From contig JAITVC010000006.1 in the NCBI GenBank assembly GCA_031286005.1, positions 1 through 19,310 on the forward strand: DNA of 19,310 nucleotides. The letters are read 5' to 3'. The notes beneath the pieces were generated by a model that was given only the letters and a program-made list of their open reading frames with translations, had not been told where the DNA came from and made no database searches. The translations under genes were made by a program, and so were the position numbers. Shown piece after piece: positions 5,762-19,310 of the stretch; the first letter of the stretch is position 1, and the number at the start of each line of letters is the position of its first letter. The stretch comes from Bacteroidales bacterium (GTDB taxonomy: Bacteria > Bacteroidota > Bacteroidia > Bacteroidales > P3).

Positions 5762-5784
5762 AGTTATTTAGATATTGTTGAATG

Positions 5785-5792
5785 CAAAGATA
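5785..5792 (-). promoter_or_regulatory. -7 promoter element of the S9 peptidase gene
   Basis: TATCTTTG on the minus strand matches TAnnTTTG and sits in the same TTTTTCGTATCTTTGCA context as the other promoters. The start codon at 5761 follows after about 20 nt of leader. The -33 position falls within AT-rich 14-bp repeats and shows only T-rich sequence, no TTTG. Confidence 0.65.
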
Positions 5793-5800
5793 CGAAAAAT

Positions 5801-5828
5801 AATTAAGAATTAAAAATTAAGAATTAAA
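5801..5828 (+). repeat. Two perfect tandem copies of a 14-bp AT-rich unit
   Basis: The unit AATTAAGAATTAAA occurs at 5801-5814 and 5815-5828 without a mismatch. It lies directly upstream of the S9 promoter and left of the 11-bp array. A further copy follows the array at 6044, and a related pair (AATTGAGAATGGAA) occurs at 11836. Confidence 0.85.
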
Positions 5829-5836
5829 AGATTTTG

Positions 5837-6012
5837 TAGCGGACTTGATACGAAGATGGTACGGACTTGGGGATAACCAGTACCGAACTTGTAGTGGACT
5901 TGTAGTGGAGTTGGTACCTACTTGGTGCCTATTTGGTAGCTTCTTGGTAGGTGCGAGGTGGCTGGATGAGGGGGACGAGGTGGCTGGGTGAGGGGGACGA
6001 GGTAATGCTCGC
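5837..6012 (+). repeat. Degenerate tandem array with an 11-bp period (about 16 units)
   Basis: Cut every 11 bp, this stretch gives units such as GTACGGACTTG, TACCGAACTTG, TAGTGGACTTG, TAGTGGAGTTG, GTACCTACTTG, GTGCCTATTTG and GTAGCTTCTTG. The phase stays constant for the whole length. The last base is G in the first 15 units, and the ending is TTG in most of the left half. In the right half the units shift to GTGGCTGGATG / AGGGGGACGAG, where two neighbouring units form a 22-bp period (5955-5976, 5977-5998). No coding frame is kept, since 11 is not a multiple of 3. It looks like a decaying minisatellite. Confidence 0.75.
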
Positions 6013-6043
6013 TTTGCTCGCGGTTAAAGGTTGGGGGATTAAA

Positions 6044-6065
6044 AATTAAGAATTAAAAATTAAGA
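6044..6065 (+). repeat. Right-hand copy of the 14-bp AT-rich repeat
   Basis: AATTAAGAATTAAA occurs at 6044-6057 and runs on into part of a second unit. A 21-bp stretch (6045-6065) is identical to 5802-5822, so the 11-bp array is bracketed by direct repeats 243 bp apart. Confidence 0.75.
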
Positions 6066-6180
6066 GATTACGGGATTACGAGTATCAAGTTAATGGTTAA
6101 AGCAGGGGAGCCGATGTGTGTGTTATGTGGTAGTTGTTGGTTTTTGGAGTTTATTTGGTTATTATGTTTATTGTTTGATA

Positions 6181-6276
6181 CTGTGTTTGAAATGCTATTT
6201 ACTGCTTCTTTTTGTGTTTTTTCTTTGTTAGGGATTGATTTTGTGATTTAAACGGTATTTACTGCTTCTTTTTTGT
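6181..6276 (+). repeat. Direct repeat pair spaced 60 bp apart
   Basis: The block around TATTTACTGCTTCTTTTT occurs near 6197 and again near 6256, exactly 60 bp apart. Roughly the first 36 bp of each copy align well. The T-rich composition lowers the significance, but the non-T core TTTACTGCTTC is exact in both. Confidence 0.55.
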
Positions 6277-6340
6277 TGAGGGCAAACGGCAAAGGGATGG
6301 CTGGAAGACGAGCACAGTTGGGAAACACAACGCAAACAGT

Positions 6341-6405
6341 TTATCAAAGATTTTTATTACCTTTGGGGCTAATTTTGGGGGATTTTTTGCAAGGGTCTTT
6401 GATAA
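6341..6405. promoter_or_regulatory. 10-bp inverted repeat upstream of the bacteriocin promoter
   Basis: TTATCAAAGA (6341-6350) and its exact reverse complement TCTTTGATAA (6396-6405) are separated by 45 nt. The pair lies about 65-130 bp upstream of the -33 box of the bacteriocin operon. It could be a paired operator or an RNA stem. The arms are real; the function is inference. Confidence 0.4.
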
Positions 6406-6471
6406 GTTATTAACAATTTTCATAACATGCTGATTTACAAAAAAAAAAAAACGATTTTTTTGCTCTGAAAA

Positions 6472-6503
6472 TTTGGTTAATTCAAATTTTTTGCTTAACT
6501 TTG
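6472..6503 (+). promoter_or_regulatory. Bacteroidetes-type promoter of the bacteriocin operon
   Basis: TTTG (6472-6475), 20 nt, then TAACTTTG (6496-6503) is a near-ideal match to the -33 TTTG / -7 TAnnTTTG promoter of this phylum. A 13-A tract at 6439-6451 lies just upstream and may act like an UP element. The precursor ATG at 6584 leaves a leader of about 75 nt, much longer than at the housekeeping genes of this window. Confidence 0.78.
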
Positions 6504-6583
6504 TTGCGTTAATTAACACCTTAACAAAAACAAAAAACCAAATTAAAACCGAACCCCGATGTGATAATGGTGGGTCAAAAATC

Positions 6584-6793
6584 ATGAAAAAATTAAGTAT
6601 TGAACAAATGGAACAAGTGAATGGCGGAGGACGAGCTAGTAATTGGTGTGCTGGTTTGATGGGTGGTTGGAGCTTTTTACTGAGTGTCGGTGCTGCCCTT
6701 GCTCCTGTAACTGCTGGCGTGAGTATTGGAATTTCTGGTGTCGCGACAGGGCTCTCCGTTGGTCTTTGTGCATTAGTTGCTATGGCCGAATAA
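6584..6793 (+). CDS. Double-glycine-leader bacteriocin/microcin-like precursor peptide
   Basis: The 69-residue product begins with the leader MKKLSIEQMEQVNGG, a typical double-glycine leader with the Leu/Met-Glu-Val spacing recognised by C39 peptidases; it also resembles the colicin V leader in layout. Cleavage after Gly15 would release a 54-residue core starting GRASNWCAG. The core is rich in Gly, Ala, Val and Ser and very hydrophobic, with GxxxG-like spacings and only two cysteines, Cys22 and Cys62 of the precursor (7 and 47 of the core), which could form one disulfide. An in-frame ATG further upstream at 6473 exists but is rejected: it lies inside the promoter and adds sequence unlike any leader. 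The gene heads an operon with a C39 exporter 1.6 kb downstream. Pore-forming antibacterial action is inferred; a signalling peptide is an alternative. Confidence 0.85.
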   Translation: MKKLSIEQMEQVNGGGRASNWCAGLMGGWSFLLSVGAALAPVTAGVSIGISGVATGLSVGLCALVAMAE

Positions 6794-6804
6794 CTAAACA
6801 TCGT

Positions 6805-7140
6805 ATGTCAGTTATAGATATGTCACCCGGCGACAAGAAGATATTTGTGATCCATAGTATTCTTTTTACTATCTCTGTCGTTTGTACACTATTTGTCCAT
6901 ATTGGCTTTCTTGCTCTGATGGGTTGTAGTCTTGGCTTTATTACGGGAACGTTGATAAGACACGGGCATTATATACTTACTAGCAAAAAAATTATATTGA
7001 TCGTTTTTTGTATCGCAGTTTTTGCTGTTGGCATAAGTTTTTTATTGTATCTCTATTCTTTTTTATGGGTCATAATCATTAATTCAATTGCTTTATTTAT
7101 TGCGACTTATTTATTATTACGATCATTAAAAAAGAAATAG
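6805..7140 (+). CDS. Small four-helix membrane protein, candidate bacteriocin immunity protein
   Basis: I do not recognise this family. The start at 6805 (MSVIDMSPGDKK) is 11 nt after the precursor stop; earlier in-frame ATGs overlap the precursor gene and give Cys/Trp-rich nonsense. The 111-residue product has a short polar N-terminus, hydrophobic segments at about residues 13-33, 35-51, 62-80 and 82-105, and a basic tail RSLKKK that should face the cytoplasm. Its position right behind the precursor, its small size and its membrane nature match the usual layout of immunity genes for membrane-active bacteriocins. It has no catalytic motif. The role is inferred from context only; an accessory export function is possible. 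Confidence 0.7.
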   Translation: MSVIDMSPGDKKIFVIHSILFTISVVCTLFVHIGFLALMGCSLGFITGTLIRHGHYILTSKKIILIVFCIAVFAVGISFLLYLYSFLWVIIINSIALFIATYLLLRSLKKK

Positions 7141-7172
7141 ATAACAAGCCTACTTATCAAACTTAAACAATT

Positions 7173-7209
7173 GGTGGCTATTGTTTCTGGCAGTAGCTAC
7201 CATTTGTTT
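7173..7209 (+). terminator. Weak hairpin with T-rich tail inside the bacteriocin operon (possible attenuator)
   Basis: GGTGGCTA (7173-7180) pairs with TAGCTACC (7194-7201) over 8 bp, one of them a G-U pair in RNA, around a 13-nt loop. ATTTGTTTT follows. It sits in the only sizeable gap of the operon, between the candidate immunity gene and the export genes, and would let the precursor and immunity genes be expressed above the exporter. Confidence 0.45.
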
Positions 7210-7226
7210 TAATTGCAAAAATACTG

Positions 7227-7871
7227 ATGAATAAATATTTAAGATTCTATCCTCTTTATTTCTTCTTTATCTATTGTGCTATATTTATAGGTTATAGCAT
7301 GATGGCTAACTATATTTTGTTTGATGATGCTTTGTATTACAGTACTTATGGCGAGATATTGGGAGCTGATAGGATTGAGCAAATGATAGAACAACAAAAG
7401 AATTATCAGATTTGGGGCTATCTGCTTATTCCCTTAATCCTTTTATTGCGGCCTTTTTATACTGCAACGTGCCTTATGACCGGCTCGCTTTTGAGTGAGG
7501 GTGAGCAGAACTTGAAGTTTGGACATAGCTTTAATTTGGCTTTGAAAGCAGACGCCATTTTCTTGCTGGAAGTGATGATTCGGATCAACTATTTTTCCAT
7601 TGTGGGGGCGGATTCTTTGCAGGAAATCAACATTCCTCTTTTCTCTGCTATACAATGGCTTGGCGTGGATAATGTAGTGTCCTATTTGGCCTATCCTTTG
7701 GGCATTTTGAGTGTGTTTGAGTTTATTTATTGGATTTTGCTTTCGGTATTTGTTTCTACGTATACCCAAAAGGGCTTTTGGCGCTCGTTGTATTTTGTAT
7801 TGACCACTTATGGCATTGGGCTGATTTTACTGTGTATTGCTGTTATGTATATCACTTCATTATTTGCTTAA
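7227..7871 (+). CDS. Unrecognised multi-pass membrane protein of the bacteriocin operon
   Basis: I do not recognise the family. The 214-residue protein has about five hydrophobic segments, near residues 7-31, 62-83, 106-126, 150-177 and 186-212. A polar stretch at 32-60 (with GEILGADRIEQMIEQQ) would lie on one side of the membrane between the first two. There are three cysteines (17, 82 and 203), no CxxC pair, and no clear catalytic motif. The overall look, short loops between paired helices, is somewhat Yip1-like, but this is only an impression. The stop is 4 nt before the thioredoxin-like gene, so co-expression with the export genes is very likely. It may be a second immunity or export helper. 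It is AT-rich like its neighbours. Confidence 0.75.
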   Translation: MNKYLRFYPLYFFFIYCAIFIGYSMMANYILFDDALYYSTYGEILGADRIEQMIEQQKNYQIWGYLLIPLILLLRPFYTATCLMTGSLLSEGEQNLKFGHSFNLALKADAIFLLEVMIRINYFSIVGADSLQEINIPLFSAIQWLGVDNVVSYLAYPLGILSVFEFIYWILLSVFVSTYTQKGFWRSLYFVLTTYGIGLILLCIAVMYITSLFA

Positions 7872-7875
7872 TAAG

Positions 7876-8397
7876 ATGAACAAAAAGATTGTGAAAACCG
7901 TTATTTTGGGCGTTGTTGGCTTGCTTGTTCTTTATTTGGGCATCCGGACTTATCAACGCTTGGAAACTAAGAAAAAGATAGAGACTGCTGTAAAAACCTT
8001 TCAGGATTTTTGTGCTTTTGACCTTAAACATTCGGGCGAATTATGCACCGATACGTTATCAAAAAAGCCCATTTTGCTCCTATTTATACATCCCGAATGT
8101 GAATTTTGCCAAGAGGAAATCAACTATATCAAAAATCTCAAAGCGCAATTGGAAGGCCTTACCCTTTTATTGGTTACCCATGCCGAAAAAGAGCAAGCAT
8201 TTGAGTTTTATACCCATCATCAATTAGCTCAATTCGACAATTTGCATTTGTTGGTAGACGATTACCTTAAAGTAGCGGGTTTGTATGGCACTCCGCCTGT
8301 TCCGTCGGTGTTTTTATATGATGCGGACAAGCAATTATTGTTCAAACATAGCGGTGAAATTAAAATAGAAGCAATCCTAAAATACATTTCAAACTAA
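7876..8397 (+). CDS. Membrane-anchored thioredoxin-like protein (CEFC) of the bacteriocin operon
   Basis: The start at 7876 (MNKKIVKTVILGVVGLL) follows the preceding stop by 4 nt; an ATG at 7837 overlaps the upstream gene and is rejected. The 173-residue product has one N-terminal membrane anchor (about 5-22), which would place the rest in the periplasm. A thioredoxin fold follows, with the redox motif HPECEFCQEE (Cys75, Cys78) after the strand KPILLLFI, and the cis-Pro loop PPVPSVFLYD. Two more cysteines, Cys46 and Cys57, lie before the domain. Redoxins of this kind accompany disulfide-containing bacteriocins and could form or isomerise the single disulfide predicted in the core peptide. Its stop overlaps the exporter start by one base (TAATG), which indicates translational coupling. 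Confidence 0.87.
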   Translation: MNKKIVKTVILGVVGLLVLYLGIRTYQRLETKKKIETAVKTFQDFCAFDLKHSGELCTDTLSKKPILLLFIHPECEFCQEEINYIKNLKAQLEGLTLLLVTHAEKEQAFEFYTHHQLAQFDNLHLLVDDYLKVAGLYGTPPVPSVFLYDADKQLLFKHSGEIKIEAILKYISN

Positions 8398-10487
8398 TGC
8401 TTGCTACCTACGATAAATACTTTGTTCGCCAACATGGGCAGGCTTCTTGCGGTATTGCTTGCTTGGCTATGATTGCCAAGTATTATGGCGGTCATATTCC
8501 GCAAGAGAAATTAATATCTACGAGTGGGACGTCTGTAACCGGGACTACATTGTTGGGCTTGTATCAGGCTGCCAACGCCATAGGGTTAAAAGCAGAAGGT
8601 TTTGAGGCGGGGATTGACGACCTGAAATCATTAGAACACCTGGCTATTTTACACTTTTCTTTGCCGGATGGCTTGGAGCATTATGTGGTTTGTTTTGGCT
8701 ACCGAAACGGTGCTTTTGTGATTGGCGACCCTGCCCAAGCCATGACTACGATGAGCGAACAAGAGGTGTTGGCCTTGTGGAAAAGCCACAAACTTTTGTT
8801 GGTGCAACGCGGAGAGCAATTTCGCACGGATGACGACACGAGCAAGCGCAAAAAGGCTTGGTTAAAGGAGTTGCTTACGCCCGATATGTCGATACTTTCC
8901 GTAGCAGCTGTTTTGGGCTTGGCGGTGTCGGTGGCCGGAATTTCGTTGGCTATTTTCTCTCAAAAATTGATTGACCAAATTCTTCCAGCCAAAGAACATC
9001 AAGAATTATGGATAGGTATTATCTTCTTGGCGTTGCTATTATCGGCTAAAAATCTGCTTTCATACGTTCGCACTATTTTGGTGGCTCGCCAAAGTCGGGA
9101 CTTTGCCAACCGGATTGTCGGCAGTTTTTACAATCAAATCTTGTATTTACCTAAATCGTTTTTTGACAGCCTAAAAACGGGCGAAATCACGGCAAGGCTC
9201 AACGATGCTGCACGCATTCAACGCACCATCAACTATGTGGCGGGAACGCTGTTGATAGATATTTTAACCGTTATTGTATGCACGGTGTTGCTGTTTGGCT
9301 ATTGGTGGATGGCCGGAGCCACTGCACTTTGCGGAGGCGTATTATTTGCTTTGGTTTTTGGGATATATAGTAAAAAGATTATAGACGGACAGCGCAACGT
9401 TATGATTTCTTACGCCGGAGCGGAAAGTAATTTTTTTGATACGGTGCAGGGTGCAGACGTGATTAAAGGCCATAACAAAGAGGAATTTTTTACACGCTAC
9501 ACCAAAGACATATATGCTGCATTTCAGACATCGGCATATGATTTAACGCTTTTGGGAAATAAAGTCGGATTAAACGTTCAGAACATCGGTACTGTGGCTA
9601 CTATTGGAGTTATTGCTTTTAGTTCGTTGGCAGTACTGAACGACCAATTGAGTTTGGGGGCATTGGTGGCTATTTTATCGCTTGCGGGGTCGGTTATTTC
9701 GTCGTCGGCATCACTTTCGGGTGCATATATCACCCTACAAGAGGCCAAAGTGGCTTATGACCGGCTGTATGAATTTGTGAGTTTAGACCGAGAGCCTGCC
9801 GACGCTGCTTTGGGACAGGTTGCGGAACATGTGGATACGCTTGACGTCAAAGACATTTGTTTTCGGTTTCCCGGCCGGCCGTTGTTGCTCAACAACATTA
9901 GTTTTGAAGCGAAAAGAGGCCAACTTACAGCTATTTTAGGCGAGATTGGTTCGGGAAAAAGTACGTTGTTGCACTTGATTTCTCGTTTTTATGAGCCGGA
10001 ATCGGGCGTGTTAACGATTGATGGGAAACCTTGGAACGCTGTTCCCTTGCACGATTGGCGACGTATGGTTGGAATCATGCCTCAACATATCAAATTGTTT
10101 AATGCTACCTTGTTGGAAAATATTTGCTTAACTAATGATAAAGAAACTTTAGATCGCTGTTTGGCTTTTTGTATGCAGTTGGATATTCAGACGTATTTTG
10201 GCAATCTGCCGTTGGGTGCGTTAACCAGAGTTGGGGAAGACGGTGTAAATCTTTCGGGCGGACAGCGTCAGTTGGTGGGGTTGTACCGTGCCTTGTTTGG
10301 CAATCCTAAAATTTTACTTCTCGACGAACCTACCAACAATATGGATCAGACGGCTACACGATTTGTGTGGGAACTTTTGGAACGTGAGAAACATGAGCGT
10401 ATTTGCATTTTGGTTACACACAACGAATTATTGGCGGGAAAGGCGGGAACTGTGGTGAGGCTAAGCTCCGTCGAAGCGACTACTTGA
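8397..10487 (+). CDS. C39-peptidase-containing ABC exporter for the double-glycine peptide
   Basis: The 696-residue protein has three parts. An N-terminal C39 peptidase (about 1-140) has Gln12, the catalytic Cys18 in QASCGIACLAMIAKYYG, His95 in LEHYVVCFGY and Asp111 in VIGDPA. A six-helix exporter membrane domain covers about 160-440. The ATPase domain has Walker A GEIGSGKST (from residue 515), Q-loop MPQH, signature LSGGQ (from 619), Walker B ILLLDEP (639-645) and an H-loop LVTHNE. All catalytic residues are present, so both leader cleavage after GG and ATP-driven export should work. The protein would cut and export the peptide of 6584-6793 across the inner membrane. It is the last gene of the operon. 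No HlyD-like adaptor follows, as would be usual for export across two membranes. Confidence 0.95.
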   Translation: MLATYDKYFVRQHGQASCGIACLAMIAKYYGGHIPQEKLISTSGTSVTGTTLLGLYQAANAIGLKAEGFEAGIDDLKSLEHLAILHFSLPDGLEHYVVCFGYRNGAFVIGDPAQAMTTMSEQEVLALWKSHKLLLVQRGEQFRTDDDTSKRKKAWLKELLTPDMSILSVAAVLGLAVSVAGISLAIFSQKLIDQILPAKEHQELWIGIIFLALLLSAKNLLSYVRTILVARQSRDFANRIVGSFYNQILYLPKSFFDSLKTGEITARLNDAARIQRTINYVAGTLLIDILTVIVCTVLLFGYWWMAGATALCGGVLFALVFGIYSKKIIDGQRNVMISYAGAESNFFDTVQGADVIKGHNKEEFFTRYTKDIYAAFQTSAYDLTLLGNKVGLNVQNIGTVATIGVIAFSSLAVLNDQLSLGALVAILSLAGSVISSSASLSGAYITLQEAKVAYDRLYEFVSLDREPADAALGQVAEHVDTLDVKDICFRFPGRPLLLNNISFEAKRGQLTAILGEIGSGKSTLLHLISRFYEPESGVLTIDGKPWNAVPLHDWRRMVGIMPQHIKLFNATLLENICLTNDKETLDRCLAFCMQLDIQTYFGNLPLGALTRVGEDGVNLSGGQRQLVGLYRALFGNPKILLLDEPTNNMDQTATRFVWELLEREKHERICILVTHNELLAGKAGTVVRLSSVEATT

Positions 10488-10537: not shown

Positions 10538-10568
10538 TTCACTATTTCTAAATTTTTTCGTATCTTTG
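10538..10568 (+). promoter_or_regulatory. Bacteroidetes-type promoter of the TPR-secG operon
   Basis: TATCTTTG lies at 10561-10568 in the context TTTTTTCGTATCTTTGCA. TTCACTATT at 10538-10546 lies at exactly the same distance (23 nt) from the TA as the same 9-mer does in the cysteine desulfidase promoter. The start codon at 10579 is only 10 nt beyond the -7 box, so the message would be nearly leaderless. Confidence 0.7.
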
Positions 10569-16609: not shown

Positions 16610-19310
16610 TTATTCGGGTCGCATGATGACTGTTAATATATTATTTGCTTCCAAAAGTTCTTTCAGTAAAACACGCAAATCTTCGGGAGTTAAATTTTTC
16701 ACAATCTCCGGTCCTTCTGTTCGATCGTTGCCATATAGAATGTAGTCGCGAAAAGCAAAACTCCAAAAGAAATTGCTCTTTATGCTTTGATCATATTGTT
16801 TAAGCATATATTCCTTGCCTTTTTGGAAATCGACCTCATCGATACCTTCTTTCACGAGTCGTTGCAGTTCTTGGTGCACAATCGGCGTAAGCGAATCCAA
16901 AAGTTCCGGATTGGTTTGGAATGTTACCACAGCGCTCAATGCGCCCACCGGCATTCTTTTCATAGAAGCTTCAACATCTACGGAATACACGCCGCTTTTT
17001 TCCTCACGAATCAATTTAGTGTAGCGAATTTCCAACACTTGTTGAAGCATCGTCATCGTAAAAGCTTTCTTTTGGTCATAGTCTACTTCTTTGGTATATT
17101 CAATAAATACAGAGGAAAGTGGTGTTTCCATTGCCCGTTTGAACTCCGATGTGCGAATGCCTTTCGGACCTCTTTTGCCGCGATCTACCCATTTGCTTGG
17201 AGCAGCAGGGCCTTTCAAACTACCGATATATTTTTCGACCAACGGACGCATTTGTGCAGTATCCATCGCACCCACAAAAAGAAAATTAAAATCTTGCGGA
17301 TTGCCAAACAGACGAGTATAAATTTCTTTGGTATCCTCAAATTTCGCCTTTTCTAAATCGTCCAAATTCATAATCATATTAATCGCACGAGGATGGTTGT
17401 TCCAACGAAGTAAGACCGCACTATCTTGAAACGAACTGAACGGCATGTTTTTTCTCGAAATGATGTTTTCTCTAATTTGTTTAAGATCGCGATTATAGTT
17501 TTCTTCATCAAAACGAGGTTCAGTAAAATAGAGATGAACGAGTTGCAACGTTGTTTCCAAATCGGTTTCATTAGTGGCACAACCGATTGTTTGAAACCAT
17601 TCGCCCACGAGCGGCGTTACACTCACAAATTTTCCGGCCAAGAATTTCGAAAGATCCGTTGCACTAAACTTACTAACTCCCGATAAGGCCGACGAAACCA
17701 TTCGTGCTGATGAATATTTCTCATCGCTCGCCGATGAATTTCCACCCGGTGCAAAGATTTCCATCAACAATTCATTTTCGCTATTATCGGTAGGAATCAT
17801 ATACACTTTTGCGCCGTTCGACAGTGTCCATTCGGTGGCGCCCATCACGGTTTTCTTTTCCGAAACGATCTTGCCCGGTGTTGGTTCTTTGCTCATCAAC
17901 GTTGTAGGCAATTCTTTTTCAGTATAGGGTTCAACATCCAACGAAGCCATACCTTTCAATTTCTTGTCAATCGTACTTTTGGTAGGAATGCTATCGGCTT
18001 CGGCCGACAACGTTACCATATCCACCACTTGATTATCGGGCGTAAAGAAACTTTTCACTCTGCGATTGGCTTCCTCCAGCGTGAAGTCTTCGATAATTTG
18101 CGTTTGAACTTTGCGATAGGTTTCCATATCCATATAGGGATTGCCATGGATAAAATGGTCGAAATAACTGTTGATATATTTGCCGTTGTCGCGCTTGTCG
18201 CGGTCGGCATAAAAACGCTCCACGTTGGTAAGCGCTTTGGCTTTGGCACGTTCCACTTCTTGCTTGGTAAACCCAAAACGTCGGAAACGCTCGCTTTCTT
18301 TCAACGCCATATCAATCCCCGGATTGATATTTTCGGCGCCACTACGGAATTGTGCACCGAACGAAAATATATCACGGTCGCCAGCCAAAGGACCATAGTT
18401 ATAGCCAATGCCGCTAACCGGATAACTGCCATTTTGAATGATTTCGCCCAAGCGGTTGTTCATCATACTTATCACTAATGAATTGTAATATTGTTCGGTG
18501 AAAATCGTTCCAAGTTTTCGGTCGGCTTTGGCTTTCGCCGGATGTTTGTACATCACTTCAAAGTTCGAAACGGTGGCTTCCGGATCGCTATACGTAACAT
18601 ACAGCAGATCTTTGTTATCCGGAATACTGTATTGCTCCACAGCACGACCATTTTCAACTTTTTTCAATTTTGAGAAAAGCGCAATCACATCTTTTTCCAT
18701 TTTGTCGATGTCAAAATCGCCGACAACAGCCACAGCCTGCAAATCGGGGCGATACCACGTGTGATAAAAATCCAGCAATGCGTTGCGTTCAAAATTTTGG
18801 ATGATGTCCATATCACCAATCACATTGCGTTTGGCGTGTTTTGAAAAGTTATAGACCGTAGGCAACAACACTTCTTGAACACGAAGTTGCAGCCCCCCGC
18901 GCGAACGCCATTCTTCTTGAATCACGCCACGTTCGGCATCAATTTCTTCCTGTTCGGCCAAAATCGAACCCGACCAATCGTAGAGCACCAACAAGCACGT
19001 GTCGATAATGCCTTGACGCAACATCGGCACGTCTTTCAGCAAGTAACGTGTGTAATAGGTTGCCGTTGCGGCATTCACATTAGCACCGAATTTCACACCG
19101 ATGGTTTCCATGTATTCGAGCATGGATTTGTTCGGAAAGTGCTCCAGCCCATTGAACGCCAAATGCTCCAAAAAGTGAGCCAAACCGTTTTGGTTATCTT
19201 CCTCTTGAAGTGCGCCCACAGAGTGGAATATCTCAAAATGCGCCCGTTTTGCTATATGGTTGTTGTACTTGATGTAATACACCATCCCATTGTCGAGCAC
19301 GCCATAGCGC
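16610..19310 (-). CDS. M16-family zinc peptidase (insulinase/pitrilysin-like), N-terminus cut by window edge
   Basis: The open frame enters from the right edge (RYGVLDNGMVYYIKYN), where the normal start and signal peptide are missing, and runs about 900 residues to the stop at 16610. The inverted zinc motif HFLEH lies at residues 42-46 counted from the GTG at 19300. The third ligand Glu lies about 77 residues after the second His, in ERGVIQEEW. This fits the HxxEH-X(74-76)-E rule. A second, non-catalytic half starts near WTLSNGAKVYMIPTDN. Its length matches long single-chain M16 peptidases with two paired halves. Such enzymes degrade oligopeptides in the periplasm. The GTG at 19300 is not the true start. 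It is followed by the REP-like element and the TlpA lipoprotein gene on the same strand. Confidence 0.93.
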   Translation of the reverse strand, partial: RYGVLDNGMVYYIKYNNHIAKRAHFEIFHSVGALQEEDNQNGLAHFLEHLAFNGLEHFPNKSMLEYMETIGVKFGANVNAATATYYTRYLLKDVPMLRQGIIDTCLLVLYDWSGSILAEQEEIDAERGVIQEEWRSRGGLQLRVQEVLLPTVYNFSKHAKRNVIGDMDIIQNFERNALLDFYHTWYRPDLQAVAVVGDFDIDKMEKDVIALFSKLKKVENGRAVEQYSIPDNKDLLYVTYSDPEATVSNFEVMYKHPAKAKADRKLGTIFTEQYYNSLVISMMNNRLGEIIQNGSYPVSGIGYNYGPLAGDRDIFSFGAQFRSGAENINPGIDMALKESERFRRFGFTKQEVERAKAKALTNVERFYADRDKRDNGKYINSYFDHFIHGNPYMDMETYRKVQTQIIEDFTLEEANRRVKSFFTPDNQVVDMVTLSAEADSIPTKSTIDKKLKGMASLDVEPYTEKELPTTLMSKEPTPGKIVSEKKTVMGATEWTLSNGAKVYMIPTDNSENELLMEIFAPGGNSSASDEKYSSARMVSSALSGVSKFSATDLSKFLAGKFVSVTPLVGEWFQTIGCATNETDLETTLQLVHLYFTEPRFDEENYNRDLKQIRENIISRKNMPFSSFQDSAVLLRWNNHPRAINMIMNLDDLEKAKFEDTKEIYTRLFGNPQDFNFLFVGAMDTAQMRPLVEKYIGSLKGPAAPSKWVDRGKRGPKGIRTSEFKRAMETPLSSVFIEYTKEVDYDQKKAFTMTMLQQVLEIRYTKLIREEKSGVYSVDVEASMKRMPVGALSAVVTFQTNPELLDSLTPIVHQELQRLVKEGIDEVDFQKGKEYMLKQYDQSIKSNFFWSFAFRDYILYGNDRTEGPEIVKNLTPEDLRVLLKELLEANNILTVIMRPE

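Follow-up and report, generated by a model that had tools for sequence, protein, structure and literature searches.

A probable class II-type bacteriocin operon with dedicated redox and C39 export genes in a Bacteroidales contig

The five genes and their products

The 19,310-nt stretch of Bacteroidales contig JAITVC010000006.1 (assembly GCA_031286005.1) analyzed here, hereafter the window, contains five closely spaced genes that probably form a bacteriocin operon. The open reading frames all lie on the + strand at 6584–10487, are separated by 11, 86, 4 and −1 nt, and are uninterrupted. They encode, in order, a precursor peptide of 69 aa (6584..6793), a small membrane protein of 111 aa (6805..7140), a five-helix transmembrane (TM) protein of 214 aa (7227..7871), an anchored thioredoxin-fold redoxin (7876..8397) and an ABC exporter containing a C39 peptidase (8397..10487). 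The Bacteroidota promoter consensus is TTTG-N19–21-TAnnTTTG. A pattern scan with this consensus placed a Bacteroidota-type promoter on the + strand at 6472..6503, with TTTG at 6472–6475, a 20-nt spacer and TAACTTTG at 6496–6503. A promoter-like −7 box of the next gene, TATCTTTG (10561..10568, + strand), marks the downstream edge of the operon. Judged from these promoter boxes, the five genes look like a single transcription unit.

Double-glycine (GG) leaders are short, end in GG and carry hydrophobic residues at positions −4, −7 and −12. The 15-residue leader of the precursor, MKKLSIEQMEQVNGG (6584–6628), ends in GG and fits this motif with V−4, M−7 and L−12; the leaders of related precursors are alike. 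The 54-residue core that follows is hydrophobic, with a grand average of hydropathy (GRAVY) of 1.21, and has exactly two cysteines, at core positions 7 (6647–6649) and 47 (6767–6769). The 111-residue protein behind it has four hydrophobic segments. The precursor, the 111-residue protein and the TM protein gave no Pfam match at or above cut-off.

The TM protein has five hydrophobic segments, and its AlphaFold2 model is helical with good confidence (predicted local distance difference test, pLDDT, 88.5; predicted template modeling score, pTM, 0.84). None of the 86 aligned members of its family matched Pfam at E<=0.01. The redoxin belongs to the ResA/thioredoxin superfamily. It matches Pfam AhpC-TSA (3.5e-8), carries an N-terminal anchor, CEFC at residues 75–78 and VPS at residues 142–144, and its PDB matches are ResA and other thioredoxin-family chains. 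The exporter combines Peptidase_C39 (PF03412, 5.9e-29), ABC_membrane (3.1e-26) and ABC_tran (1.2e-30) domains with intact motifs, namely the C39 residues Q12, C18, H95 and D111, Walker A at 515, the signature at 619, Walker B at 639 and the H-loop at 673. It is homologous over residues 9–675 to the solved ABC-type bacteriocin transporter of the PCAT1 type (PDB 4ry2, 1.8e-80), which we take to come from a Clostridium and which differs in its substrate. These features bear out three assignments of an earlier note on this DNA, made from the sequence alone: a double-glycine precursor, given the leader, its counterparts in relatives and the intact C39 protease motifs; an anchored CxxC redoxin; and a C39 ABC exporter.

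Conservation of the module and replacement of the cassette

An exporter scan of species genomes retained 80 loci, and the best six of the 80 (L001–L006) were examined. They come from Bacteroidales and Prevotellaceae metagenome-assembled genomes, with L005 assigned to Bacteroidetes; some bear isolate codes that we take to be termite-gut codes, which makes any habitat for the window a guess. The whole module is present in five of the six, and L005 holds the exporter end only. In these relatives the TM gene adjoins the redoxin and C39 genes, and the full order of precursor, small membrane protein, TM protein, redoxin and C39 exporter is kept in L002, L004 and L006. L001 and L003 carry additional precursors or small genes. 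In L003 (3872–6760), two tandem cassettes, each with an 80-residue helix-turn-helix (HTH) gene, a GG precursor and one or more small membrane protein genes, stand before a single TM-redoxin-C39 module, and L001 has one HTH gene related to those of L003.

Identity of the exporter to that of the window is 86% in L001, 85% in L003, 78% in L002, 79% in L006 and 53% in L004; among the five relatives it ranges from 76 to 31% for the TM protein and from 65 to 25% for the redoxin. Nonsynonymous (dN) and synonymous (dS) rates between the window and L001 are 0.16 and 1.35 for the TM gene, 0.22 and 1.43 for the redoxin gene, and 0.08 and 1.22 for the C39 gene. For all three, dN lies well under dS against both L001 and L003, and by this measure they are under strong purifying selection. 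The recurrence of the gene set in five relatives, together with this selection, indicates that the closely spaced five-gene pathway proposed in the earlier note is real.

The genes ahead of the machinery behave differently. Across eight precursors (28 pairs), leaders average 68% identity and cores 22%, against 21 ± 6 for shuffled cores. All eight cores have exactly two cysteines, one within the first 9 and one within the last 8 positions. The slot of the 111-residue protein is filled in the five relatives by different proteins, most with at least two hydrophobic segments. The small proteins behind the precursors are mostly unrelated by BLASTP, the sole strong pair being tandem genes within L003 (1.1e-15) and the next best reaching 0.004. 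Replacement of both core and small protein before fixed machinery is the pattern of a swapped toxin-immunity cassette, and we infer exchange of the precursor gene together with the immunity gene ahead of a conserved export module.

Of 393 genomes of the order, a profile of the TM protein hit 15 and a broader profile 19; further hits came from 34 of 140 genomes of one family and from 30 of 395 of the phylum. Fragmentary or broken matches were dropped from the family survey (G437, G495, G431, G444 and G526:C178), as were G246 from the order survey, G368 from the broader-profile survey and, from the phylum survey, G001 and G332, which the first set already contained, and G994:C3 and G943 (stops). 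The first set comprised 54 loci, with the window, a plasmid and the close relatives among them. On the strand of the TM gene and no more than 6 kb from it, a redoxin gene was present in 48 loci and a C39 gene in 45. At least one GG precursor was present in 30 of the 54 (47 precursors in total), and 24 had none by the leader pattern. A hold-out set of 33 loci gave 19 with redoxin, 22 with C39 and 10 with precursors (16 in all), leaving 23 without a precursor by the leader pattern. Two hold-out loci, L296 and L297, came from a check of genomes sharing the block downstream of the operon and not from the phylum sample, and some survey loci are cut by contig ends. From these co-occurrences, TM protein, redoxin and C39 exporter are a lasting association across Bacteroidota, looser in the phylum-wide sample.

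The two surveys together yielded 63 precursors, 44 of them hydrophobic. Cysteines at both ends were found in 41 of these 44, against a shuffled expectation of 10.2 on average and at most 20 in 2000 shuffles; the limits for hydrophobicity (0.65) and for cysteine positions at the ends were picked after the data had been seen. A tree of 40 TM proteins places the window with L001 and L003 (100/100), and along it core type switches at least five times.

A probable bacteriocin pathway and its alternatives

Microcin V-type systems combine a GG leader, a cysteine pair, a dedicated membrane immunity protein and a C39 exporter in a Gram-negative host. The microcin label, offered in the earlier note beside that of bacteriocin, nevertheless fits less well, since no gene of the membrane-fusion or TolC type was noticed in the window. 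The MccV model was not matched by the window precursor at E<=0.01, and at this limit only 2 of the 24 hydrophobic precursors tested matched it, compared to 13 of 24 for Bacteriocin_IIc; all of these matches are weak, the best being 3.3e-5. Class II GG bacteriocins resemble the window system in their GG leader, small hydrophobic Gly/Ala-rich core and C39 exporter. A small membrane immunity partner is typical of them. They differ in that the window precursor falls below their family cut-offs, as detailed below, and in that class IIa regions typically lack a TM protein and a thiol oxidoreductase, according to Coyne et al. 2019 (PMC6671954). A commentary (PMC12648078) reports large-scale mining of class II bacteriocin genes, Bacteroidota included.

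The closest published counterpart is the bacteroidetocin region. As described by Coyne et al. (PMC6671954), it comprises four genes, for a five-TM protein, the peptide, a thiol oxidoreductase and a C39 exporter; activity is attenuated when any of the first three is deleted, and in Escherichia coli the four together are enough. The proposed class IIf has 19 members there, of which bacteroidetocins A and B have a 15-residue leader and a 42-residue core with four cysteines. No obvious immunity gene is described for these regions, and producers inhibit themselves. Bacteroidetocins kill Bacteroidales, with BamA as their target (PMC8546649). The window shares with this description a 15-residue GG leader, a cysteine-containing core, a thiol oxidoreductase, a five-TM protein and a C39 exporter in one small region. 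It differs in gene order, the published one being TM protein, peptide, oxidoreductase and exporter, in its hydrophobic two-cysteine core, and in a candidate immunity gene where none is obvious in the regions described. The two TM proteins are likened by description, through their five segments and the same partners. The earlier note had called this membrane protein unrecognized, which holds for Pfam but not for the literature, where a counterpart by description exists. Given the published four-gene region, the window is not a new kind of system. The pathway type is already known, and what is different is the type of peptide and the accompanying membrane protein gene.

We consider it probable that the five genes are an unmodified (class II-type) bacteriocin operon, with GG processing, redox and C39 export functions and with immunity supplied by the 111-residue protein. 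The C39 domain would recognize the leader, cut after Gly15 and export the peptide, as its motifs and homology suggest. Outside the inner membrane, the anchored redoxin would then join Cys7 and Cys47 of the core, closing a hydrophobic helical hairpin. The five-helix protein is a candidate maturation or export factor, a dedicated role of the kind demonstrated genetically for its bacteroidetocin counterpart. Once mature, the peptide may target related bacteria by inserting into their inner membrane. The 111-residue membrane protein is likely the cognate immunity protein that would protect the producer. Its variation between relatives alongside the core, while the module stays conserved, supports the small candidate immunity protein of the earlier note, and the comparison likewise supports that note's picture of a bacteriocin operon equipped with processing, redox and export genes of its own.

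Several results weigh against this interpretation. Antibacterial activity, processing and the disulfide are themselves inferred, and the hairpin model of the peptide is of low confidence (pLDDT 59, pTM 0.29). The window precursor scored below the cut-offs of Bacteriocin_IIc (PF10439, 10.1 vs 27.1 bits), lactobin A/cerein 7B (NCBIfam TIGR03949, 8.3 vs 21.5 bits) and bacteriocin_sig (TIGR01847, 14.1 vs 15.7 bits). The sole match of the core among 5.8 billion proteins was the window's own, in a shallow search in which only 6 candidates shared words; together with the missed cut-offs, this agrees with the remark in the earlier note that the core was not recognized as a described bacteriocin family. 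Of the window genes scanned with Pfam, which leave out the M16 gene at 16610–19300, none was recognized as coding for outer-membrane exit, membrane fusion or a TolC-type channel. In L001, the genes next to the precursors each have only one hydrophobic segment by the measure used for the other relatives.

The link between core and partner was similarly mixed. In the first survey, a polytopic protein (at least two hydrophobic segments) stood next to 30 of 32 hydrophobic cores and 1 of 15 other cores (p=5e-9). In the hold-out set, the corresponding counts were 7 of 11 and 1 of 2 (p=1), leaving the link unconfirmed, chiefly because few hydrophilic cores were testable: 3 of the 16 precursors were skipped, the next gene belonging to the module, and only 2 other cores could be used. 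The rule was found after looking, its criteria were noted before the hold-out, and both sets were run with a looser hidden Markov model (HMM) limit. A tree-based test of core type against partner had too few pairs, after 5 of the 40 tree rows had been set aside as mixed or untestable. That hydrophobic cores go with membrane partners and other cores with secreted partners is thus put forward as a hypothesis.

One alternative is that the peptide is a bacteroidetocin in the strict sense, acting externally on BamA with no immunity protein, and that the 111-residue protein has another role. The same kinds of genes, the 15-residue GG leader and the two cysteines fit the description given for the 19 members (PMC6671954), and two survey loci, L185 and L187, encode peptides with a 15-residue leader and a 42-residue, four-cysteine core beside TM and redoxin proteins of the window's families. 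Their TM proteins are homologous to that of the window (1.1e-10 and 7.2e-8 with the window A1 profile), as are their redoxins (3.7e-16 and 8.6e-14 with the A2 profile). However, the cores of L185 and L187 have a GRAVY of −0.46, compared to 1.21 in the window, and a variable membrane protein gene follows the precursor here. We regard this alternative as unlikely.

The peptide could instead be a pheromone, exported by a C39 protein as in competence systems. C39 exporters do carry pheromones, the ComA structure 8hf4 matches the window exporter (2.1e-58), and in L001 and L003 small HTH genes stand ahead of the precursors. Next to the window operon, however, no HTH or receptor-like gene was seen, and cores that are long, hydrophobic and hypervariable and whose membrane partners differ are more in keeping with toxin-immunity pairs, making a signaling role quite improbable. 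Self-protection might also come from the five-helix protein or the exporter, with the 111-residue protein, which lacks a family match above cut-off, as a maturation helper; the microcin J25 exporter itself confers immunity (PMC10352776). Against this, expression of the TM protein gave no protection against bacteroidetocins (PMC6671954), and the TM protein is conserved here, unlike the small protein, which varies in the way the core does, so we judge this explanation very doubtful. A decayed or unexpressed relic, suggested by a precursor known from this contig alone, is highly improbable in view of the five open frames, the promoter box and the strong purifying selection on the three machinery genes.

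The bacteriocin operon reading can be extended to a phylum-wide, unnamed bacteriocin class, a proposal to which we give equal chances of being right or wrong. Its members would be hydrophobic hairpins with an end-to-end disulfide and bacteroidetocin-type export, accompanied by exchangeable inner-membrane immunity genes encoding small membrane proteins, ABC permeases or proteins with about 12 hydrophobic segments. If so, one module would serve two types of weapon: one that acts on the outer membrane and has no immunity gene, and one that acts on the inner membrane and is paired with immunity. An export module of the bacteroidetocin kind beside a probable toxin-immunity cassette lets one ask why one type of peptide should need immunity when the other does without. 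The unannotated five-helix family also offers a search handle for peptide toxins of Bacteroidota, the precursors being too short and variable for easy sequence searching.

Flanking genes, base composition and further loci

The operon lies between a prolyl oligopeptidase/DPPIV gene and a block of genes for p299 (a 299-residue protein), SecG, PfkB, DUF1599, MauE and a Zn-peptidase. Of five genome regions compared, four (G001, G537, G557 and G002) retain the p299-SecG-PfkB-DUF1599-MauE block, and the fifth, in G538, matched p299 only. In the stretches compared, neither the operon nor the oligopeptidase gene lies upstream of the block and other genes are present instead, although only 1.5 kb upstream was available for G001. 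The module occurs elsewhere in G001 and G002, and two TM genes lie elsewhere in G538; no TM gene was found in the draft genomes of G537 and G557. Four relatives thus keep the downstream block without the operon beside it, so its presence is patchy, which supports acquisition between housekeeping genes as the earlier note had suggested. The comparison among relatives it called for did not find the same five genes at the same place in all.

The greater AT-richness claimed for the operon holds for three of the five genes. GC content is 31.2% in the small membrane protein gene, 36.9% in the TM gene and 37.4% in the redoxin gene, whereas the precursor (46.7%) and C39 (45.3%) genes fall within the 42–49% of the 11 flanking genes measured. 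An intergenic region of 822 nt (5762..6583, GC 36.1%), AT-rich and with repeats, separates the oligopeptidase gene from the operon. The repeat-rich stretch reported ahead of the operon is present here as eight rows of tandem repeats with scores of at least 33 inside 5801–6176. Short AATTAAG-type tandem repeats are found at 5801–5829 and again near 6037–6070, and a GC-rich 22-nt repeat at 5954–6003.

Other survey loci show further arrangements. Six partners of hydrophilic GG peptides were scanned against Pfam; four contained CarbopepD_reg_2, one contained Porph_ging (annotated as GLPGLI) and one had no match. The five matching proteins, of 293–445 residues, follow their peptides at L104:8614–9495, L107:3319–4581, L185:6719–8056, L190:587–1897 and L162:8412–9320. 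Repeated units of GG peptide, accessory gene, TM gene and redoxin gene fill L107:2925–15866, with three TM genes, three redoxins and five GG peptides. Two small, weakly HTH-like proteins (L108:1971–2363 and L108:3821–4093) end in a GG-leader-like TNDDMSKISGG and a tail, as if a regulator had been fused to a leader. A plasmid of Flammeovirga pectinis (L162:4826–10907) carries the TM-redoxin-C39 module and, behind it, genes for a 51-residue GG peptide, a GLPGLI protein and a LanC-family protein.

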